From contig PXPT01000028.1 of NCBI GenBank assembly GCA_003021505.1, positions 1 to 32,532 of the forward strand: a DNA stretch of 32,532 nt, read 5' to 3'. The notes under the pieces were generated by a model, which worked only from the letters and a program-made list of their open reading frames with translations, searched no databases and had not been told where the DNA came from. Source of the stretch: Cyanobacteria bacterium QS_4_48_99 (lineage in GTDB: Bacteria; Cyanobacteriota; Cyanobacteriia; Cyanobacteriales; Rubidibacteraceae). This document shows positions 11,471-32,311 of the stretch, piece after piece; position 1 is the first letter of the stretch, and each line of letters begins with the position of its first letter. A program made the translations under genes and the position numbers.

Positions 11471-12160
11471 TTAAAATCCCGTCTTCTAGATATGCGATGC
11501 GGTCAGCGACATCGACACGCAGCAGGTCAATAATGTTATGTCCACTCTGGGAGTCTAGAGTAGCAGTGGGTTCGTCTGCCATAATGAGCTGGGTTATTTG
11601 CTAGGGCACGAGCGATCGCTACTCGCTGTTTCTGTCCACCAGACAAATCTTGCGGTTTTTGATGGGCATGCAAACCAACCCCACTTGCTCTAACAACACC
11701 TGGCCTGAGGTAGCGCTTTTTTGGCACGAATGCCTTTAAGATTAAGCACAACTTCCACATTCTCAGCCACCGTTAGCGCTGGAAAGAGATTAAAATTCTG
11801 AAAAATAAAGCCAATATTTCGTTGTCGGAACTGAGTCCGCTTGCTTCGAGACATACTGGTAATTTCTTGATCCAGTAAGTAGATATTTCCGGCTGCGGGG
11901 GTGAGTAATCCCGCTAAAGTGGTTTTCCCCGAACCAGAGGGTCCCATTAAAAGCTGGATATTACCTTTAGGAATTTCCCAGTTAATGCTTTTGAGTACCG
12001 GAAAAGATTGTTTTCCTGACTGGAAAGCCATCTCTACTCCTTGGGCGTGGATGGCTCCAGCTTCAGTAGGGGTGAAATCGGCAGAGTGAGAGGAAACGTG
12101 AACTCGGCTTCTAGTAAACACAGCTAACCTGTAAATTGGGTGATTAGGCTTGGAAGGCAA
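11471..12160 (-). pseudogene. devA: DevA/MacB-type ABC exporter ATPase, broken
   Basis: The ATPase of a DevBCA-like three-part exporter. Walker A GPSGSGKTT is intact and the Q-loop region [20 protein letters not shown] is good. The signature [19 protein letters not shown] is in another frame (11590-11660), and Walker [13 protein letters not shown] is in a third (11560-11590). Residues are missing right after Walker A (the usual LLSILGG), between AKKALPQAR and the LSGG block, and between NIIDLL and DVADRIAYLEDG, where the switch histidine should be. So several small deletions and frameshifts have destroyed it. DevA normally drives glycolipid or macrolide-type export with DevC and DevB. A DevC scrap lies just upstream; DevB is absent. 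Confidence 0.78.
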
Positions 12161-12212
12161 GAACCAAGACGGCTGAACCGAGGCACATGACTATCATAAA
12201 CCAGCGATCACG

Positions 12213-12338
12213 CTAACAAATTACCATCCCAGTAAGATAGCAGAGTATCGCTATACACGACACCTGCTCTGCGATCGCACCGTGTACTACTCTCTCAGAC
12301 GCGCCCATCGCTTCAAGGGTTCCAAACTCGATGAGTAC
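12213..12338 (-). pseudogene. DevC-like permease fragment
   Basis: A 42-codon scrap on the minus strand, LIEFGTLEAMGASERVV and then ILCYLTGMVIC before a stop. It resembles the EFGTLKAMG region and following membrane helix of DevC/FtsX-type exporter permeases. It lies directly upstream of the devA remnant on the same strand, the normal devC-devA order. Its upstream side is lost about 25 bases before the right end of the tnpB element. Assignment rests on this short match plus context. Confidence 0.45.
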
Positions 12339-13653
12339 ACATATAGCAGGACTCTTACAACTTGACACTCCAACGACTTGAGGCAATAGCCGGAGTCGTT
12401 GGATTCTTGGTTCGCAGAGGCGACTTTCCATTTTAGACTCTCACCTGAACTGAAAGCGGTCTCCTCTCCCCAAGCTTGAAATTCCGTATGCCCTACGGTA
12501 TTTGTTGTTTCTATCCCTACCAACCTTAATGCCTTGATCAAAATGTTAATCGCAGCGTTATGATTGCGGTCTAAAATCGTTCTGCATTTAGGACATTGGT
12601 GAGTTCTGACGGGCAACTATTTTCTCACCCTAGTTTCACAGACAAAACAGTCTTGACTCGTGTATTCAGGAGGTACAGCAATCAGAATTTTTCCAAAACA
12701 TTCACCAAAATATTGAAAGTATTGAGTGAATTGCGACCAAGCTGCATCCGATACGGACTTAGCAAGCCTGCGATTTTTAGCTAGGTTCGCCACGCTTAAA
12801 TCTTCATACGCCACCACATCACTCGATGTGACCACGCACCTTGCTGATTTCACAGCAAAGTATTTACGCTGGCGAGTGACCTTCAGGTGTTTCCTGCCTA
12901 GTTTTTTCTTCGCTTTTTTGTAGTTGTTGACTGTGGTTGACCTAGCAAAAACTTCTTAGAGACTCGTCTTTGCAATCTCTTGAGTGCTTTTTCTGACCTT
13001 CTCAGGTGTCTTGGATTGTCAACCTTGTTTCCCTCTGACTCAGTGTAGAAACTGGCTATACCAACATCTAAACCGAGACTGCGGCTAGCTGGGGAGACCT
13101 CTTCTTGTCTTTCCACCTTCACGCTAAACTGCACATAGTATCCATCTGCTCGTTTGAAGAGTCTGACTCATTTAATTAGGTCTTTTGGATACCAGTCGAG
13201 TTGATAGCCCGATCTAAGTTTGAGTGTACCAATCCCCATTTTGTCGGAGAAGGTGATGTAGTTCCAGTTATCTGAGAGTTTCCAACCAGCGGTTTGGTAT
13301 TCCACAGACCGACAGTTTTTCTTAAAACTCGGAAAACCTTTCTTCCCACTAACTTTCTTTTTACAGTTGTCCTAGAAACGACTAATTGCAGACCAAGCGC
13401 GTTCGCCTGCTGACTGTCTAGCTTGTGAACCTAGACGTTTAGCAAGAGAAAACTCACTAGCTAAAACTTTACAAAGGTTGCTGAGGTCATACTTACCTAC
13501 TCCCGTGTTATCCATCCAGTGTCTAATACATTGATTACGTATGACCTGAGAGGTGCGAATTGCCTCATCTATAGCTTGGTACTGCCCGTTTTTGCCGTAG
13601 AGTTTCGCCTCTAAAACCAGCATGGATACCAAGGTGTTTACCCGGTTCGCCAT
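12287..13653 (-). pseudogene. tnpB: tnpB (RNA-guided nuclease) with three nonsense mutations and one frameshift
   Basis: TnpB is the IS605-encoded RNA-guided DNA nuclease, ancestor of Cas12. The start is MANRVNTLVSMLVLEAKLYG at 13653 (or MLVLEAKL at 13623). The RuvC I aspartate region is SLGLDVGIASF, RuvC II is VVAYEDLSVANL, and the zinc ribbon is TSQDCFVCETRVRK then THQCPKC. RuvC III is LDRNHNAAIN with Asn where Asp is usual in HNAA-type variants. TAG at 13372 (SRF*DNCKKK), TGA near 13164 (KDLIK*VRLFKRADGYY) and TAG at 12617 (VRK*LPVRTHQC) are single-base nonsense changes in otherwise well kept sequence. A frameshift lies near 12895. The frame has no stop before the element's right end and runs out into flanking DNA to 12287. 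Not functional without suppression. Confidence 0.85.
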
Positions 13654-13724
13654 AGCATAAAACTCAATGCAAGCAAACATCCCACCCCTTCCACTTGCGT
13701 TTAAGGGGTGGGCTTTCCTTTTCT
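12362..13724 (-). mobile_element. IS200/IS605-family element 1 (tnpB only)
   Basis: The element reads right to left. Its left end on the minus strand follows TTAC (complement of 13725-13728), with a 10-bp hairpin CCCACCCCTT/AAGGGGTGGG at 13681-13712. Its right end finishes in GTGTCAA (complement of 12362-12368), preceded by an 8-bp hairpin CAACGACT/AGTCGTTG (12371-12401). Target TTAC and right-end TCAA are the pair used by IS608-like elements, which insert 3-prime of the tetranucleotide without duplicating it. No tyrosine transposase tnpA is present, so it depended on one encoded elsewhere. It carries only tnpB, now decayed. Confidence 0.75.
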
Positions 13725-13759
13725 GTAACTTTGCAGTTAGCTTTTCGCAGCTCTTGCTA

Positions 13760-14871
13760 TTAATCCGTAAGTGAAATAGATCACAGTTAGATGCCTGCAT
13801 ATTGCACCTCGGGTGGCCAGAAATAATGGCTCACTTGCTCGGGGCACTGCTGGATGCGATGCAGGTAAGCCCGCAGGGCCTGTTTGAGTTCGGCCGTGTC
13901 ACGCGGTCGCTGCTGGCGCACTGCATTGGCCTTGATGTCCTGGTTCAGGAACTCGTTCGGATTGCGCTCGGGAGTGTAAGAGGTCAGATAGAACAGCTCG
14001 AGTTCATCCCGATGCTGGGCTACCCACTCTCGAACCCGATGCGCCCGATGTACGGGATGGCGGTCTAGTACCAAAAACACCTTGCTCTTGCTTGAGCGCA
14101 CCAACCGACCCAGGAACTCTAGGAACACCTCGCTGGTGAAGCTCCCCTCAAAGACCTGGAAGCGAAGCTTGCCTCGGTTGGTCAGCGTAGAGATGAGGTG
14201 ACAACTGAAGCGTTGACCAGTGCGTACAACTACTGGCGTCTTTCCCTTAGGCGCCCAGCAGGTGCCAACCTGGTGGTCCGAGCGCAGTCCCATCTCATCA
14301 CCCCAATGGATTTGGGCCCCTTCCTGCTGGGCTCGCCTGTGCAGCGCTGGATCTTGATGCACTCACCACTGCCGGAGGGCCTGGAGAGACTGTTCCCTAG
14401 CTCGTTTGGCTGGCTTCTGAGGAGACAGCCCCCAGTGGCGCAAGTAGCGACCCACGGCACTCTGGGACAACTGCACGCCCCACTGCTGCTCGATTAGCTG
14501 CCCCACCGCCTCTCGGGTCCACAGCGCATACGGCAACTGCAGTTGCTCTGGGGCATAGTTTCGAATGAGACGGGTCGTTGTCGCCACCTGGTCGCGACCC
14601 AGTTGGGTTGGGACGGCCTTGCTTGCGCGCCGCTAGGGCCTTCTGGCCGCGGGCGCGGTAGCGTTGTACCCCACGGTTGACGGCGGGGCGCGTCACGCCC
14701 AAATCCTGAGCGAGTTGGCCTTGCTTGCGCCCCTGCTCCACTACAGCAGCGACGGCTCGTTTGCGCAAGGCTTGTTGGGTCTGAGGTGAGAAGCTGCGTG
14801 TGTCTTCGAAATTCATCATAGATAGCTTCCAGGCTCACCTTCCGGTGTAACTGATTTGGCTCACGGATTAA
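13760..14871 (-). mobile_element. Complete IS630-family element with TA duplication
   Basis: About 27-bp imperfect terminal inverted repeats begin TTAATCCGT at the left (13760) and at the right (complement, ending 14871). A TA lies on each side (13758-13759 and 14872-14873), the target duplication typical of IS630/Tc1-mariner. Length is 1112 bp with one transposase gene. It sits only 35 bp from IS605 element 1, so two insertions hit almost the same spot. Confidence 0.85.
13787..14819 (-). pseudogene. IS630-family DDE transposase, frameshift plus nonsense
   Basis: The N-terminal helix-turn-helix is good: QLAQDLGVTRPAVNRGVQRY then ARGQKALAARKQGRPNP. At about 14605 the frame shifts by one, and TTTRLIRNYAPEQLQLPYAL then LIEQQWGVQLSQSAVGRYL follow in the new frame. 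A TGA at 14363-14365 replaces the residue after SLQALRQW. After it the same frame carries the catalytic domain: Asp in HWGDEMGLRSDH, Asp in FLVLDRHPVH and Glu in YTPERNPNEFLN. All three DDE residues survive. Some IS elements use programmed frameshifting, but the site has no slippery A or T run and the added stop argues for decay. Confidence 0.82.
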
Positions 14872-16495: not shown

Positions 16496-16523
16496 TCAAA
16501 ACTGCATGACAAAACAATTAAAC

Positions 16524-16565
16524 GATGCTCGCGCGTCGCAGATTTCTGCGCGTCGGTTAAAAGTT
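16524..16565. repeat. 42-bp hairpin repeat, copy 1
   Basis: Identical over 42 bases to 32123-32164. The core hairpin CGCAG-ATTT-CTGCG is flanked by a direct repeat of GCGCGTCG. It lies 28 bases after the ccdA stop; the other copy lies 2 bases after the methyltransferase stop. There is no T-run, so it is not a classical terminator. Confidence 0.75.
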
Positions 16566-16721
16566 TAGAGTGAAGTGAGGGGTGAGGAATGAGGGGTGAA
16601 AAGTAAAAAGTCCATTTCGAATGAAACAGAAAATTTTATTTCTATTCCTAGTCCCCTCACACCTAAACGCGCTCACGCACTCACACCTCACTTTCTTCAT
16701 TTAAATTCGGAGCGAAGCGAC

Positions 16722-20406: not shown

Positions 20407-21173
20407 ATGGCTGCTATTACCTTAAACTTACCCCCCCACCGTTGAGCTAACAGATGAGCAGTTCTTCCAACTTTGTCAGAATAACCGAGACTTGCGAGTT
20501 GAGCGCACGGCTGAGGGAGAATTAATTCTTATGCCACCAACGGGATGGGGAACTGGAAACCAGAACAGCAAACTAACTCAACGCTTAGGCAATTGGGCAG
20601 ATGCTGATGGGACAGGACTTGCTTTCGACTCTTCAACAGGTTTGAAGCTCCCTAATGGTGCAAATCGTTCTCCTGATGCGTCGTAGTTGACACTCTCCTA
20701 CCTAAAGGAAGGAGATTCTCGCTTCTACGGGAGAATCTAGAAAGCACGGAACTGAATCCATACACTTTCCCCGATCTCAAAACCGCTCAGCGAGCTCGGG
20801 ACAGCCCGTCCCTACTTAGAAGTAACTAGATCACAGAGCTTCCTAAAGGAAGGGGCCTTAGACCCATGATTTTTGGGTAAGACAAGAAAGATTAGAAGCC
20901 CAGAACCCAGATCCTACCCGATTCCTATCGATGGCTCCCGACTTTGCAGTAGAGTTACGTTCGGCTTCGGATAACTTGGAGACACTGCAACAAAAAATGC
21001 AGGAATACCTTGACTGTGGCGTGCGAATGGGTTGGCTGATCGAGCCTCTCAATCAACAGGTGGAAATTTATCGCCTCGGGCAGAATGTGGAAGTTCTGCA
21101 ATCCCCTACTCGCCTATCAGGAGAGGAGGTACTGCCTGGATTTGTGCTGGAGCTAGCAGAGATTTTGAGCTAG
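20407..21173 (+). pseudogene. Uma2-family endonuclease, frameshifted and split by a small IS605-type element
   Basis: MAAITLNLPP starts at 20407. A run of seven C (20431-20437) puts the rest one base out of frame, after which TVELTDEQFFQLCQNNRDLR, ELILMPPTGWGTGNQN and LPNGANRSPDAS are perfect Uma2. At 20684 the next codon, TGG in relatives (Trp), reads TAG, and a 190-bp element is inserted at 20687-20876. The gene then resumes VRQERLEAQNPDPTRFL, MAPDFAVELRSASDNLETL and LSGEEVLPGFVLELAEILS. Removing the insertion restores a continuous family sequence. A downstream fragment from ATG 20931 would hold only part of the nuclease fold. Confidence 0.87.
20687..20876 (-). mobile_element. tnpB-less IS200/IS605-derived element A (190 bp)
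   Basis: On the minus strand the insertion follows TTAC (complement of 20877-20880) and ends GTGTCAA (complement of 20687-20693). The left-end hairpin is CTTCCT/AGGAAG (20839-20850), followed on the plus strand by CCTTAGACCCATGAT, nearly the same as in element 2 at 26009-26024. The right-end hairpin is TCCT/AGGA within 20696-20717. The interior 20713-20820 (GATTCTCGCTTCTAC, CTCAGCGAGC, CGGGACAGCCCG, CCCTACTTAG) is shared with element B at 29818-30094. No coding capacity. It is inserted in a Uma2 gene. Confidence 0.75.
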
Positions 21174-24706: not shown

Positions 24707-24814
24707 CAATTTTGTATAGTTGTGATAGAAATCTTTGGCTGGGGAATAGGGGAAGGTGGTATTAGAAATTATCCCTCTTTTTTGATAATTTCTGATGTAT
24801 TGACACTCCCCAGC

Positions 24815-25930
24815 CTAAAGGCGTGGGGATTCTTGGGTCGTAGGGGAGCTTACGCTTAACCCCTCGCCAAGCATCTTGACGGTATGTCCTACCGCTGCAA
24901 GCCCGCGTTGGGCTATGATTTGCGCTGACGCCACGTCTCTGTTGCCTTCATGCCCACACTCATGGCAATAGTGAACCCGTTGTAATAGTTCTTTTTTGCC
25001 TGTATGGGTGCCACATTCTGGGCAAATTTGACTCGTATGGGAAGCATCGACCTTAAGGAACAATACGTCTCGCTTCCAGCAAACCCACTCCAGAATCCTA
25101 AAGAACTCTCCAAAGCTGGCATCCAGCATATGCTTCCAGAAGAGTCCTTTAGCCCAGGCAATGAAGTTGAGATCCTCTATAAACACCATTCCAGCTCTAT
25201 CGCAGAGACGATGAGCAAGTTTATAGAAGAAATCTTGGCGGCAGTTAGCTATATGTTCGTGTAGTTTGGCAACCCTGTGTTGTGCTTTTTTCCAGTTACT
25301 GGAACCCTGCTGTTTTCTGCTAGCTCGTTATCTAACCCAATAGCGTTCCCTTTAGCAGTTGGCGATGGCACGTCAACATCCCATGGGAGGGTTAACATCA
25401 CATACCAACCCGAAGCTTTCCTAACTACTTGGGCTTGTTTAATTACGAAACCATCAGGGATAGGACGTGACCAGCGAACCTTGACCAATCCCATCTTAGG
25501 AATCTTAATTCTATTCCCTTGCACCGGGTTGTCTGCTAGTTGTGGAAAGGTTAGCGACCGAAACTGCCCAGTCTTTTTGAACCGTGGAAAACCGAAACCG
25601 CGCTCCCACATAGACGTAAAAGCGTGTTCTAGTCTCTTAAGCACTTGCTGTAGAACAGCAGACTGAACAGCCTTTAGGTGAGGGTTAGTCTTTTTGGCTT
25701 GGGTTAATGCTTTAGCCTGGCTAACAAATGTCGGACGTTGGACGTCCGCCGGGATTACATACTCACTCTTAATTGAGCAAGCATGAATCCGACATGATCT
25801 CGACTTATACCAATCCTTGCGCTCACCAAGGGCATAGTTCCAGACCTTACGACTAGTTTCTAACCAGTCGTAAGGTCTGGCTCTGTGCCTTAGTTGGCTC
25901 AAGCTTATCTTGGTACGTGAGATTTATCAT
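24815..25930 (-). pseudogene. tnpB: tnpB of element 2, frameshift and internal deletion
   Basis: The true start is ATG 25928-25930 (MINLTYQDKLEPTKAQ). An inverted duplication near 25860 then breaks the frame, and ETSRKVWNYALGERKDWYKS continues in the next one. The zinc-free N-terminal half and FRSLTFPQLADNPVQGNRIK look normal. RuvC I ends abruptly after GNAIGLD, where about 45 residues are deleted and the frame shifts. RuvC II is MVFIEDLNFIAWAKGLFWKH, the zinc ribbon is SQICPECGTHTGKK with HYCHECG, and RuvC III is EGNRDVASAQIIAQRGLAAV. All catalytic acids survive but in different frames. The stop lies only 15 bases inside the right end, so the guide RNA and gene overlap as usual. Confidence 0.87.
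25840..25880. repeat. Perfect 15-bp inverted repeat inside tnpB
   Basis: CCAGACCTTACGACT (25840-25854) and its exact complement AGTCGTAAGGTCTGG (25866-25880) with an 11-base spacer. The left arm is native tnpB coding sequence (SRKVWN on the minus strand). The right arm occupies the place of family sequence, so it looks like an inverted copy made by templated repair. Confidence 0.85.
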
Positions 25931-26029
25931 GTTTCCATGATATGTTAGCTTTTGCGTATTGTTTAGTTAAGGCAAAGAGTGAATTTTAAGTCGCCTTATA
26001 AAGGCGAGGTTTTAGACCCATGATCCCAG

Positions 26030-26199
26030 ATAAAGCCAACTGTGGAATTTGCACTACGGGGAGTAGCCATAGTAGAAGACTCTCTATAAAATAAATAAGT
26101 ATTTTCTATATCTGGGCGTTGTAGCAGTGAGAGTACCTGATACCAGTTATCAAAAGTAGCTAGAGAGATACAGCAGTGAATTTCCAAGGATACAGCCAA
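26030..26199 (-). pseudogene. Possible small gene interrupted by IS605 element 2
   Basis: The minus strand reads IHCCISLATFDNWYQVLSLL then QRPDIENTYLFYRESSTM and runs into the element's left end. If the element is removed, the frame continues through TTTAT into ITSEIIKKEG and a stop near 24773. That would give a 66-residue protein. I do not recognise the family, and the start is a TTG. The rest of the gap up to 26408 contains no other recognisable feature. Confidence 0.3.
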
Positions 26200-29705: not shown

Positions 29706-29817
29706 TCTTGGTTAGTCATTAGTCCACAGTCTGTAGTCAAGGAGGGGGAGCCGCCGGAACCCGCGTACAAGTTAGATAAACGTGTTTTTCTAATGACCGA
29801 TGACAGATGACTATTGA

Positions 29818-30094
29818 CCAGATCCTTGGGATTCAAGCCTCGCCGATCTTCGGTGACTTTAATAATATAATTGGAATATCCCATTATTCGCTTGAAAGGA
29901 TCGCCGTAAGGGAGGAACCTTCTACGCAATCAGTGGGTTAATCAACCAAATTAGTTGAAGCTAAGTAGGGGCGGGCTGTCCCGAAGAAGGCTCGCTGAGG
30001 GTAAAGGTATCGGGGACTTGGTTAATTCGTTGATCATATCTAGAATCCCTTGTAGAAGCGAGAATCTCTACTCTTCAAGGGTTGAAAGTGTCAA
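29818..30094 (+). mobile_element. tnpB-less IS200/IS605-derived element B (about 277 bp)
   Basis: The right end finishes GTGTCAA at 30088-30094. Its complement reads TTGACACTTTCAACC, then GATTCTCGCTTCTAC, then CCCCGAT, CTCAGCGAGC, CGGGACAGCCCG and CCCTACTTAG, in the same order as element A. The left end has TTGGGATTCAAGCCTCGCCG with hairpin CCGA/TCGG (29839-29849), equivalent to the GGCGAGG-TTTTAGACCCA of element 2. The left boundary after TTGA at 29814-29817 is approximate. It has no protein-coding content; about 90 extra bases near the left end distinguish it from A. Confidence 0.65.
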
Positions 30095-30102
30095 TACTGA
30101 GT

Positions 30103-31197
30103 TCAGGTAGGCAATTTCTGTTGATGGATTTTAATTCCGCGGCTGTCCATTGCTTGGATAAACAACTCGGTGGGCAGTGCTTTCTCAATTGCCCAAACAC
30201 CGGGTTTGTGAAGTTTACCAGCCAGGATTAGTTCAGCAACGCTACCAGTACCAAAGCCAGTTGCCGCTGCCGTGTTTTCATGCACCATTGTTGAGCAATG
30301 CCGCGTCCTTTGCCCATCTTTCTTTCCAAGAATTTCGGCGCGGATGGCGATGCCAATGCCACTGAAGCGGTCAGTGAAACTGGTCATCTGGAGAGATACG
30401 CGAGACAAAAACTCGATTTTTTTAGGATCTTGGAGCCAGGAGTGAGGAAAGAGGCGAGCAGTCATCCAAGTAAGATGATTATAGAAATCGGGGATAGAGC
30501 CAAATTTGGTAATGACACTTTGAACTGGAAAAGACTCAGCTAGAGTGTGAGTCTCTGCAATATCAAACCAGTATACCCCCGCTTTGCCAAAAGGTGGGGG
30601 AAATTCTACTGTTTCGCGATCGCTATAAGGTAGTATTTTCTGCCACTGACCATCAATCCAGGCATCAAAGGAGTTTTGCAGCCCCAGAAATGTTGTACGC
30701 ATCACCGTTAGTCCAGCGCCACCTGATCCCGCTACTAAATAACTGAGGTGAATCTTTTCTGCCTCGTCAAGCTGCTCAATTCCTTGGCGCACCATGCTAT
30801 TAGAAATACCAGGAAAAACCCCAGTGTTGAGAATCGCCGTTACTCCAGCAGCGGCAGCTTCTTCATGATAAGCGATCACCTTATTATAAAAAGAGCGGTG
30901 GTCACTAACATCAAGATAGTTCACTCCTTGTTCGATGCAAGCTTTGAGAACGCGACCATCGCGGTGATGAAAGGGACCTGCACAGTGAATAACTAAATTG
31001 CTATTTTTAATGGCGTGATGGAGTCCTTCTCGATCATCCAAATCGAGGGCGAGAAATTGCGATCGCGGATTTTCTGGTTGCTTAGTTTTATGACGCCCTG
31101 TCGCAACAATTTCTGCATCCACATGCCCCCATAAATCTTGCACAACTTGGCTGCCGATTCGTCCTTGACCGCCGATCACTAAAATTCGGTCTGTCAT
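30103..31197 (-). CDS. Saccharopine-dehydrogenase-like NAD(P)-binding protein
   Basis: A 364-residue oxidoreductase-like protein. The N-terminus TDRILVIGGQGRIGSQVVQD is a Rossmann GxGxxG, with a basic residue pair after VATGRHK that suggests NADPH. LVIHCAGPFHHRDGRVLKAC and GVNYLDVSDH are standard for the saccharopine dehydrogenase NADP-binding family (PF03435), as is ILNTGVFPGISNSMVRQGI. Relatives include carotenoid- and lipid-associated reductases as well as true lysine-pathway enzymes; the reaction here is unknown. The ATG at 31195-31197 is the family start. It is divergent from the methyltransferase at 31317. Confidence 0.87.
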   Translation of the reverse strand: MTDRILVIGGQGRIGSQVVQDLWGHVDAEIVATGRHKTKQPENPRSQFLALDLDDREGLHHAIKNSNLVIHCAGPFHHRDGRVLKACIEQGVNYLDVSDHRSFYNKVIAYHEEAAAAGVTAILNTGVFPGISNSMVRQGIEQLDEAEKIHLSYLVAGSGGAGLTVMRTTFLGLQNSFDAWIDGQWQKILPYSDRETVEFPPPFGKAGVYWFDIAETHTLAESFPVQSVITKFGSIPDFYNHLTWMTARLFPHSWLQDPKKIEFLSRVSLQMTSFTDRFSGIGIAIRAEILGKKDGQRTRHCSTMVHENTAAATGFGTGSVAELILAGKLHKPGVWAIEKALPTELFIQAMDSRGIKIHQQKLPT

Positions 31198-31316: not shown

Positions 31317-32120
31317 ATGTCAAAGCAAAAGTATATTTTCGACAATGCGCCAGACAAAAATGAGCTGAAGCGACTCCAAGCGATTGAAGAAATTTTCGAT
31401 CCACCCACTCAAAAGCGACTTCGAGCAAGCGGACTAGAATTAGGTTGGCAGTGCCTCGAAGTGGGCGCCGGGGCAGGCTCGATAGCGAAATGGATGAAGG
31501 AAATCGTCGGCGAAGCGAGTCGCGTAGTGGCTATGGATATTAATCCTAGGTTTCTCAACGAGAATAACTCCTCTGGCATAGAAGTATTAAATGCCGATAT
31601 TAGAAATGCGGAGTTGCAAAAGAACTATTTTGATCTCGTCCACGCTCGTTATGTTTTAATGCATCTGCCAGAGTACGAGCTAGCGCTACAAAATATGCTG
31701 GCATGTCTTAAGCCTGGTGGCTGGCTTGTCGTGGAAGAACCTGATTTTTCGGCGGCTCGTCCTGTTGCTGGAAAGAAAGAAGAAATTCACGCAGTCAAAA
31801 AAGTTAATCGGGCTATCTTCCGTATGTTCGCAAATTTAAATATGGATTATGCTTTGGGTCTGCAAATTCCCGCGCTTTTTCAAAAGTTGGGTTTGACTTC
31901 AATTTCAGTAGAAAACGATGCGCCATTAGCTCCGGGAAATTCAAAAGTGGCAAACATGATGAAAATGTCTGCTACCAACTTAAAAGAAAAATATCTTGCC
32001 ACCGGAGAAGCAACTAACAAAGATGTCGAAAAATATTGTCGTTTCTCACAAGATTCCTATGCTTGGGCGGTGTATTATTCCACCATCGCAGTTGTGGGAC
32101 AGAAAACCATTACCAATTAA
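31317..32120 (+). CDS. Class I SAM-dependent methyltransferase
   Basis: A 267-residue Rossmann-fold methyltransferase. Motif I is CLEVGAGAGSIAKWM (residues 46-60), the acidic ribose-binding residue is in VVAMDINP, VLNADIRNAEL is the adenine-binding strand, and YFDLVHARYVLMHLPEYELA is motif IV. LKPGGWLVVEEPDFSA is the post-motif strand. The C-terminal half (MDYALGLQIPALFQKLGLTS) is the substrate part of small-molecule UbiE/polyketide-type methyltransferases. The start ATG 31317 (MSKQKYIFDN) is chosen over an upstream TTG. Substrate unknown. The copy 2 hairpin repeat lies directly after the stop. Confidence 0.9.
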   Translation: MSKQKYIFDNAPDKNELKRLQAIEEIFDPPTQKRLRASGLELGWQCLEVGAGAGSIAKWMKEIVGEASRVVAMDINPRFLNENNSSGIEVLNADIRNAELQKNYFDLVHARYVLMHLPEYELALQNMLACLKPGGWLVVEEPDFSAARPVAGKKEEIHAVKKVNRAIFRMFANLNMDYALGLQIPALFQKLGLTSISVENDAPLAPGNSKVANMMKMSATNLKEKYLATGEATNKDVEKYCRFSQDSYAWAVYYSTIAVVGQKTITN

Positions 32121-32122
32121 AG

Positions 32123-32164
32123 GATGCTCGCGCGTCGCAGATTTCTGCGCGTCGGTTAAAAGTT
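32123..32164. repeat. 42-bp hairpin repeat, copy 2
   Basis: Identical to 16524-16565 and in the same orientation relative to the upstream gene. It starts two bases after the methyltransferase stop. The bases that follow (to 32311) are A/T-rich with CTAATGACTAATGACC-type short repeats and contain no gene. Confidence 0.75.
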
Positions 32165-32311
32165 AAAAATTAAAAATTAGTTATTTGTCCTTCGTTGTTC
32201 GTCCTTTGTTCTTCGTTATCAGTAAAGTTACATAAACGTTAGTGCTAATGACTAATGACCCAGGGCTATTTTATTCTAAGTGGTAGGATAAGGATGCTTG
32301 GTTAAAAACAA

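Follow-up and report, generated by a model that had tools for sequence, protein, structure and literature searches.

Short tnpB-less IS200/IS605-type elements of a cyanobacterium probably carry a TnpB guide-RNA scaffold as their cargo

Introduction

What is the shared interior of two transposon-like elements that carry neither tnpA nor tnpB? The question is raised by contig PXPT01000028.1 of Cyanobacteria bacterium QS_4_48_99, of which the whole stretch analysed here, 32,532 nt in length, is called the window; the genome to which it belongs (the own genome) is coded G000. An earlier note had described two such elements, A and B, in opposite orientation and with six blocks of sequence in identical order, and had read their interior as a candidate guide RNA. 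All six blocks are present, with first bases at 20714, 20736, 20769, 20786, 20797 and 20810 in A (plus strand) and at 30066, 30044, 30015, 29999, 29983 and 29970 in B (read on the minus strand). Since a blastn search with B against the own genome returned A at E = 2.6e-7, among 40 matches in total at E up to 1, a chance resemblance can be ruled out. The guide-RNA reading appears largely to hold on the sequence comparisons described below. The limits of B, formerly placed at 29818-30094, were corrected to 29819-30094, such that the element begins after TTGAC and ends with TCAA (Table 1).

Insertion sites and element ends

A and B can be assigned to the IS200/IS605 family by their end hairpins, their guide tetramer, the TTAC or TGAC that precedes them, and the GAAT and TCAA of their right ends. 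Both are inserted behind a fixed tetranucleotide with which the left guide pairs, as is characteristic of the non-autonomous elements of this family (MITEs or PATEs), and the right ends of the tnpB-less copies have GAAT at the hairpin foot and TCAA at the tip. For IS608, PMC5934647 gives TTAC as left cleavage site (CL), AAAG as left guide (GL), TCAA as right cleavage site (CR) and GAAT as right guide (GR). Among 33 own-genome left ends of the family of A, 20 show an exact TGAC and eight an exact TTAC, and the five others are exact after a one-base shift of the boundary (three) or have T for C at the fourth position (two). The second base of the target and the first base of the guide switch together in all 33 (T/A in 11, G/C in 22), giving the pairs TTAC/A and TGAC/C, a rule that reflects few evolutionary switches and not 33 independent ones; the TGAC type with guide CAA(G) makes up two thirds (22/33). 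All 11 left ends from genomes G005 and G008 combine TTAC with AAAG, and of three copies from G011, two (L208 and L210) have the guide TTAG, not AAAG, and one (L209) was not parsed. Six TnpA matches, three of them without internal stops, were found in the own genome.

A lies within a Uma2 gene. With its flanks joined, the Uma2 frame continues across the junction, interrupted by one stop at that point and without a target duplication, an observation made at this junction only; the rejoined protein matches PF05685 at E 5.1e-44 (with X placed at the junction stop). The window also contains an inverted 141-nt match (520-660 versus 20936-21076, 74%) that covers part of the Uma2 gene interrupted by A and possibly marks a second Uma2-like gene. 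Separately, a 60-nt direct repeat with an inner palindrome-like GCGCGTCGCAGATTTCTGCGCGTCGG is found at 16515-16574 and 32114-32173 (92% identical).

B is flanked by a DUF2973 gene on one side and a saccharopine-dehydrogenase-like gene on the other. In an own-genome blastn search its left end was 89% like that of C34, a tnpB-bearing element, and 91% like that of C32. The region 29864-29947, which covers most of the B leader, had no listed match elsewhere in the own genome at E up to 1, nor any at E up to 1e-5 in 60 genomes including the own, with the best 12 candidates at most scored in each. B was rejected as a copy of A's family because neither its left end nor its leader has a counterpart in another tnpB-less copy, be it among the own-genome matches or in the 60-genome search. 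The proposed family of mobile guide-RNA units calls for a qualification: A is a member of a high-copy family, and B stands alone, with a left end resembling that of a tnpB-bearing element and a diverged scaffold, which forms a long branch in the scaffold tree.

Table 1. Features of elements A and B and of related copies. Positions are those of the window unless a contig handle of the own genome (C) is given. R1 is the covariance model described in the text.
Feature	Position	Strand	Remarks
B, IS200/IS605-type element without tnpA or tnpB	29819-30094	+	
TTGAC, target/left cleavage site (CL) of B	29814-29818	+	would double as TAM
B left end	29819-29855	+	guide tetramer CAAG 29834-29837 at hairpin foot; hairpin 29841-29855
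TATAAT, candidate -10 box of B	29866-29871	+	behind left-end hairpin
B leader, left end to scaffold	29872-29959	+	88 nt
Putative omegaRNA/reRNA scaffold and right end of B	29960-30094	+	R1 120.9 bits, E 9.4e-34, B itself being among the nine sequences that built R1
B right end	30062-30065 (GR); 30091-30094 (CR)	+	GR GAAT at hairpin foot, right-end hairpin, CR TCAA at tip
Putative B guide	30095-30110	+	16 nt of flanking DNA past the right end
A, tnpB-less high-copy family member without tnpA	20687-20876	-	190 nt; within Uma2 gene
TTAC (GTAA on plus strand), target/CL of A	20877-20880	-	
Weak -10-like box of A, TCTAGT	20825-20830	-	after TGA; 4 nt 5' of scaffold; locus L021, score 3.6
Putative omegaRNA scaffold and right end of A	20687-20820	-	R1 131.2 bits, E 5.9e-37, A itself being among the nine sequences that built R1
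Diverged homologous scaffold/right end at 3' end of window tnpB	24800-24902	-	R1 58.5 bits, E 2.4e-14
Window tnpB, other type	24815-25902	-	two open frames, 24815-25189 and 25249-25902; PF07282, PF12323
Scaffold-reduced copies	C97, C115, C140, C62:6845, C189, C166:65664, C178, C71:1254, C94, C168:23263		
Copies with shared 3' breakpoint (G000)	C97:53965, C115:41093, C140:809, C62:6845, C189:10363, C166:65664, C160:8885		
Second tnpB-less family (G000)	C62:12014-12136, C23:9606-9728, C171:11596-11718, C133:492-614, C41:8247-8389		

The shared interior and the 3' ends of tnpB

A and B have only the scaffold part in common. Full elements in which the same interior lies at the 3' end of tnpB, which the earlier reading called for, do occur: C34, C13 and C151, three tnpB-bearing elements of the own genome, have this scaffold as their 3' end. 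In the passages of PMC10097598 and PMC10278001 that deal with it, the TnpB guide RNA is described as the tnpB 3' end, or scaffold, together with the right end. Judged by homology to the tnpB 3' end and right end, a conserved fold and a right-end hairpin near the putative guide, the shared interior is the predicted scaffold of a TnpB guide RNA (omegaRNA or reRNA). A known RNA family was ruled out with Rfam, which at gathering score gave only a tRNA in the window and zero matches in 20 loci, most of them with tnpB-less elements.

The interior had been thought not obvious in the two tnpB-bearing elements of the window. This stands as far as the exact blocks are concerned, none of the six occurring on either strand in 24780-26060 or 11690-13800, the places of the two TnpB zinc-ribbon matches. 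It does not stand for the first tnpB once R1, a covariance model built from nine own-genome sequences including A and B, is applied: a homologous scaffold adjoins this gene, and R1 listed none at the second place, 11690-13800.

Among C34, C13 and C151, only C151 has an open tnpB, the others being broken, and it is the only intact tnpB found with the scaffold type of A and B. Its 413 uninterrupted residues (G000 C151:8229-9503, minus strand) contain three TnpB Pfam domains and match the structures 8h1j and 8bf8, which we take to be ISDra2 TnpB, at E about 1e-28. In an alignment to the designed nuclease 9yyg, the RuvC residues D, E and D line up (roles of these residues as given in the relevant part of PMC10097598). 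The element has lost its own right end, with no right-end hairpin and no TCAA tip, so that the C151 TnpB looks immobile; it could serve other copies.

An immobile, solitary intact TnpB of this scaffold type would also suit a domestication of some copies, as guides with a regulatory role that direct TnpB, or a dead TnpB, at host genes. The C151 protein, however, retains the RuvC D, E and D, and for the one guide examined, that of B, no second motif-preceded site was seen at up to two mismatches, which makes domestication very unlikely. That search, run with the 16-nt B guide only, in the own genome and at up to two mismatches, returned two other sites with two mismatches each; neither is preceded by TTGAC, TTAC or TGAC, and both were rejected as host-gene targets. 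The lack of a second motif-bearing site is as expected if the copy targets its own empty site.

Fold and covariation

The suggestion that selection acts on the shape of an RNA agrees with strong covariation across the tnpB-less copies. In 41 such copies, in an alignment that was fitted to the covariance model, 96.4% of cells are paired, compared with 36-59% when the partner is slid; in 19 of 34 pairs both partners have changed, and not one of 500 shuffles attained any of five covariation measures. The same helices, with 33 pairs of which 19 covary, were recovered from a MAFFT alignment of 21 tnpB-less copies when no structure was supplied for folding. Divergence among copies is uneven, as had been anticipated: the helices vary in paired fashion, and GAAGCGAGAAT is the same in all 21 tnpB-less copies of one alignment. 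If the tnpB-less copies arose several times, some of the covariation could be older than the loss of tnpB.

G-U pairs occupy 171 of 1374 cells in the tnpB-less alignment, and on the other strand only 85.4% of cells would pair, against 96.4%. This bias favours the strand that reads from left end to right end, on which the guide would be the flanking DNA at the 3' end. Single sequences fold better than their shuffles in the case of A, a typical copy and three tnpB tails (z -2.0 to -4.2), but not in that of B (z +1.08). A 3' pseudoknot as in the TnpB RNA of ISDra2 (positions -5 to -3 with the loop of stem 1) could form with 3 bp in 50 of the 63 rows that end in TCAA (of 66 rows), a number that is not significant, 238 of 2000 exchanges matching or exceeding it.

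These patterns bear on two other readings of the interior. Its hairpins could be single-stranded DNA structures for TnpA-driven transposition, in line with the end hairpins that serve TnpA in IS608 (as treated in part of PMC5934647). This is considered extremely unlikely, since copies missing most of the interior hairpins occupy other sites with intact ends, the wobble pairs are biased to one strand, and the scaffold is the one found at tnpB 3' ends. Alternatively, the interior could be a passive relic: internal deletions would have left both ends and a tnpB tail, the RNA would be inert, and the copies would be ordinary MITEs or PATEs moved by an outside TnpA. The compensatory changes and the strand-biased wobble pairs among tnpB-less copies speak against such relics, although the resemblance of the B left end to that of the C34 tnpB element speaks for them.

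Promoter-like sequences

The best -10-like hexamer lies 3-5 nt 5' of the scaffold in 34 of 41 tnpB-less copies, often after TGA, the two together as in the TGATATAAT of several G005 copies. Its mean score over the 41 copies is 6.7, compared with 3.4 for shuffles, whereas the same place in 15 tnpB-bearing copies, which is coding there, scores 1.6 against 2.3. None of 19 tnpB-bearing rows (the 15 and four added later; a 20th, without upstream sequence, was left out) passes 0.05. A box at a fixed place that is absent from tnpB-bearing copies is again at odds with passive relics. Since only 17 of 41 tnpB-less copies pass 0.05 singly, part of TGTGAT also pairs within the left-end stem, and the copies are related, the evidence that many tnpB-less copies carry their own -10 box as a putative promoter is suggestive only. 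B has no good -10-like box at the usual site directly 5' of the scaffold.

Copy number and distribution

With 150 of 360 first-look candidates scored, R1 had at least 68 own-genome matches at E up to 0.0034. For the 67 matches with sequence (C32, which has none, was left out), a search of up to 1.5 kb upstream with five own TnpB proteins as queries gave a tnpB match in 19 cases and none in 48, three of the latter being at contig starts. A census of TnpB guide RNAs that relies on tnpB genes alone would therefore miss many copies in such a genome. At 120 bits or more there are at least 21 places, 20 of them, including B, without tnpB, and the left end is absent in two of these 20.

At least ten further copies keep both ends and have lost parts of the scaffold, a frequent loss which suggests that movement does not require the scaffold, unless all of the deletions occurred in place. 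The occurrence of such shortened copies would fit a passive relic, as would relative locus L202, which is down to a tnpB fragment, and a Halanaerobium PATE that, as described in PMC7290912, retains 28 nt from the left end, the final 58 nt of tnpB and a 160-nt right end. Seven shortened copies have differing 5' breakpoints and a near-identical 3' breakpoint at GG^TTTTGAG of the scaffold, and C178 and C71:1254 break from the opposite side at about the same spot, which looks like a deletion hot spot.

Forty loci of relatives, chosen from the best model matches and not a fair sample, comprise 17 with a tnpB match (several being fragments, such as L195 and L202, or cut by contig ends), 19 taken as stand-alone and four of unclear type (L200, L212, L213 and L217, with L212 and L213 at contig ends), which were excluded from the tree and the tnpB-less sets. 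Loci L208-L210 were counted as tnpB-less, their sole TnpB match being 19 residues at the scaffold start with E about 0.001. An R1 match of some kind, tnpB-bearing or tnpB-less, is present in 81 of 100 genomes. In a class-wide search with R2, a model of the tnpB-less scaffold, 10 of 388 genomes gave matches at E 1e-15 or better (best eight candidates at most per genome), tnpB-bearing ones included (G004, G035); G005 and G008 are absent from this list and were probably not drawn into the 388. The small number of genomes with R2 matches makes the tnpB-less scaffold lineage look narrow. One exact pattern, run against a named genome collection, gave two records, one of them a diverged copy in Filamentous cyanobacterium Phorm 6; the pattern was found in a record of Cyanobacteria bacterium SW_9_44_58. 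The presence of protein-less guide-RNA elements related to A and B in other cyanobacteria suggests that such RNAs may spread as mobile parasites in their own right.

Two further tnpB-less families were observed. One occupies five places in the own genome (Table 1) with a different scaffold, four of the five having a common leader of more than 100 nt. The other, of IS605 type and likewise with a guide RNA, comprises L248, L249, L250 and L251 (1501-1635 or so) and L133 (1501-1634), in genomes of four family codes (f29, f33, f41, f56), with a conserved leader of about 200 nt 5' of the scaffold. Eight TnpB queries found no tnpB match at these loci, and there was no Rfam match; the fold of the five sequences has 74 pairs, 27 with double changes, and a TATAAT-like box was seen by eye behind the left-end hairpin in some.

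Phylogeny of the scaffolds

In a tree of 62 scaffolds (one locus being present twice) and 111 columns, 37 of 42 tnpB-less rows form one clade without tnpB-bearing rows (support 98/91), which spans G000, G005, G008, G011 and G022 and thus three family codes. The clade is lost when hairpin 1 is dropped (four changes), and holds even less without hairpins 1 and 4. An AU test did not reject a single clade of all 42 tnpB-less rows (p 0.281). Other tnpB-less families (L208-L210 of G011, and L214 and L218 of G013) are placed among tnpB-bearing scaffolds. Given these placements and the dependence of the clade on hairpin 1, tnpB may have been lost on several occasions while the guide RNA was kept, and one large old group is possible too. 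The separate grouping of tnpB-less scaffolds argues against passive relics, though not when hairpin 1 is dropped, and taking the fold, the promoter-like box and the shortened copies together we regard the relic reading as unlikely.

Discussion

We suggest that A and B are probably non-autonomous elements of IS200/IS605 type with a TnpB guide RNA as cargo, and that they would act as guide-RNA parasites of the TnpB system. Many copies would be transcribed from their own -10 box directly 5' of the scaffold, and B perhaps from the TATAAT behind its left-end hairpin. The RNA would be loaded by a TnpB from elsewhere, for which the 413-residue C151 protein is the best candidate in the own genome, with the unique DNA past the right end as the guide. 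The complex would cut the element-free allele, in which TAM and guide together make up the empty site, and repair from the filled copy would restore or spread the element; movement as such would depend on a TnpA encoded elsewhere.

Only tentatively do we extend this proposal to cyanobacteria at large. TnpB guide RNAs might there form a long-lived, promoter-bearing and protein-free mobile lineage, which split before G000, G005, G008, G011 and G022 diverged or else moved between them, evolves under selection on its fold, and exploits the TnpB and TnpA of others.

TnpB is the presumed ancestor of Cas12. If a guide RNA can indeed leave its nuclease gene and spread alone, effector and guide would be separable, a step toward the separate guides of CRISPR-like systems, and the elements would offer a testable case of RNA-only parasitism in bacteria. 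Among the matches listed from the open-licence literature, judged by title and the start of the abstract, there were no TnpB-type elements consisting of only a guide RNA with its own promoter, and no account of such a copy number, of selection on the fold of tnpB-less copies or of a promoter-like box was found among them either.

Guide RNAs without an effector gene are familiar from the IscB system, with HEARO and Ktedonobacter as examples, and A and B resemble these stand-alone omegaRNAs. The latter are already in print and can work with IscB in trans, according to a passage of PMC9581776 that cites another paper. The likeness is one of description: the IscB system has a different effector, and its RNA lies upstream of the gene in the account given in a part of PMC9956272. 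A close counterpart by RNA is the ISDra2-type TnpB omegaRNA, in which, as described in parts of PMC10097598 and PMC10278001, the scaffold is likewise the tnpB 3' end plus the right end, a right-end hairpin lies near the guide, and the guide is taken from the flank. Unlike it, the RNA of A and B resides in tnpB-less elements, many copies have a promoter-like box, and the C-terminus of TnpB need not be encoded.

By their architecture, gene-free with ends only and presumably moved in trans, the elements are like the PATEs and MITEs of IS200/IS605. The Halanaerobium PATE, also in print, retains a tnpB tail and right end as they do, but the description available in PMC7290912 covers one sequence and gives no RNA role for it, whereas here many copies in several genomes show RNA covariation. 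With IS608 of Helicobacter they share the GAAT foot and TCAA tip on the right and, in the G005 and G008 copies, the TTAC target and AAAG left guide; IS608 carries both tnpA and tnpB, whereas A and B have neither, and 22 of the 33 own-genome left ends of the family of A are of the TGAC/CAA(G) type. As a guide-RNA parasite of TnpB, such an element would follow a logic comparable to that of a SINE.
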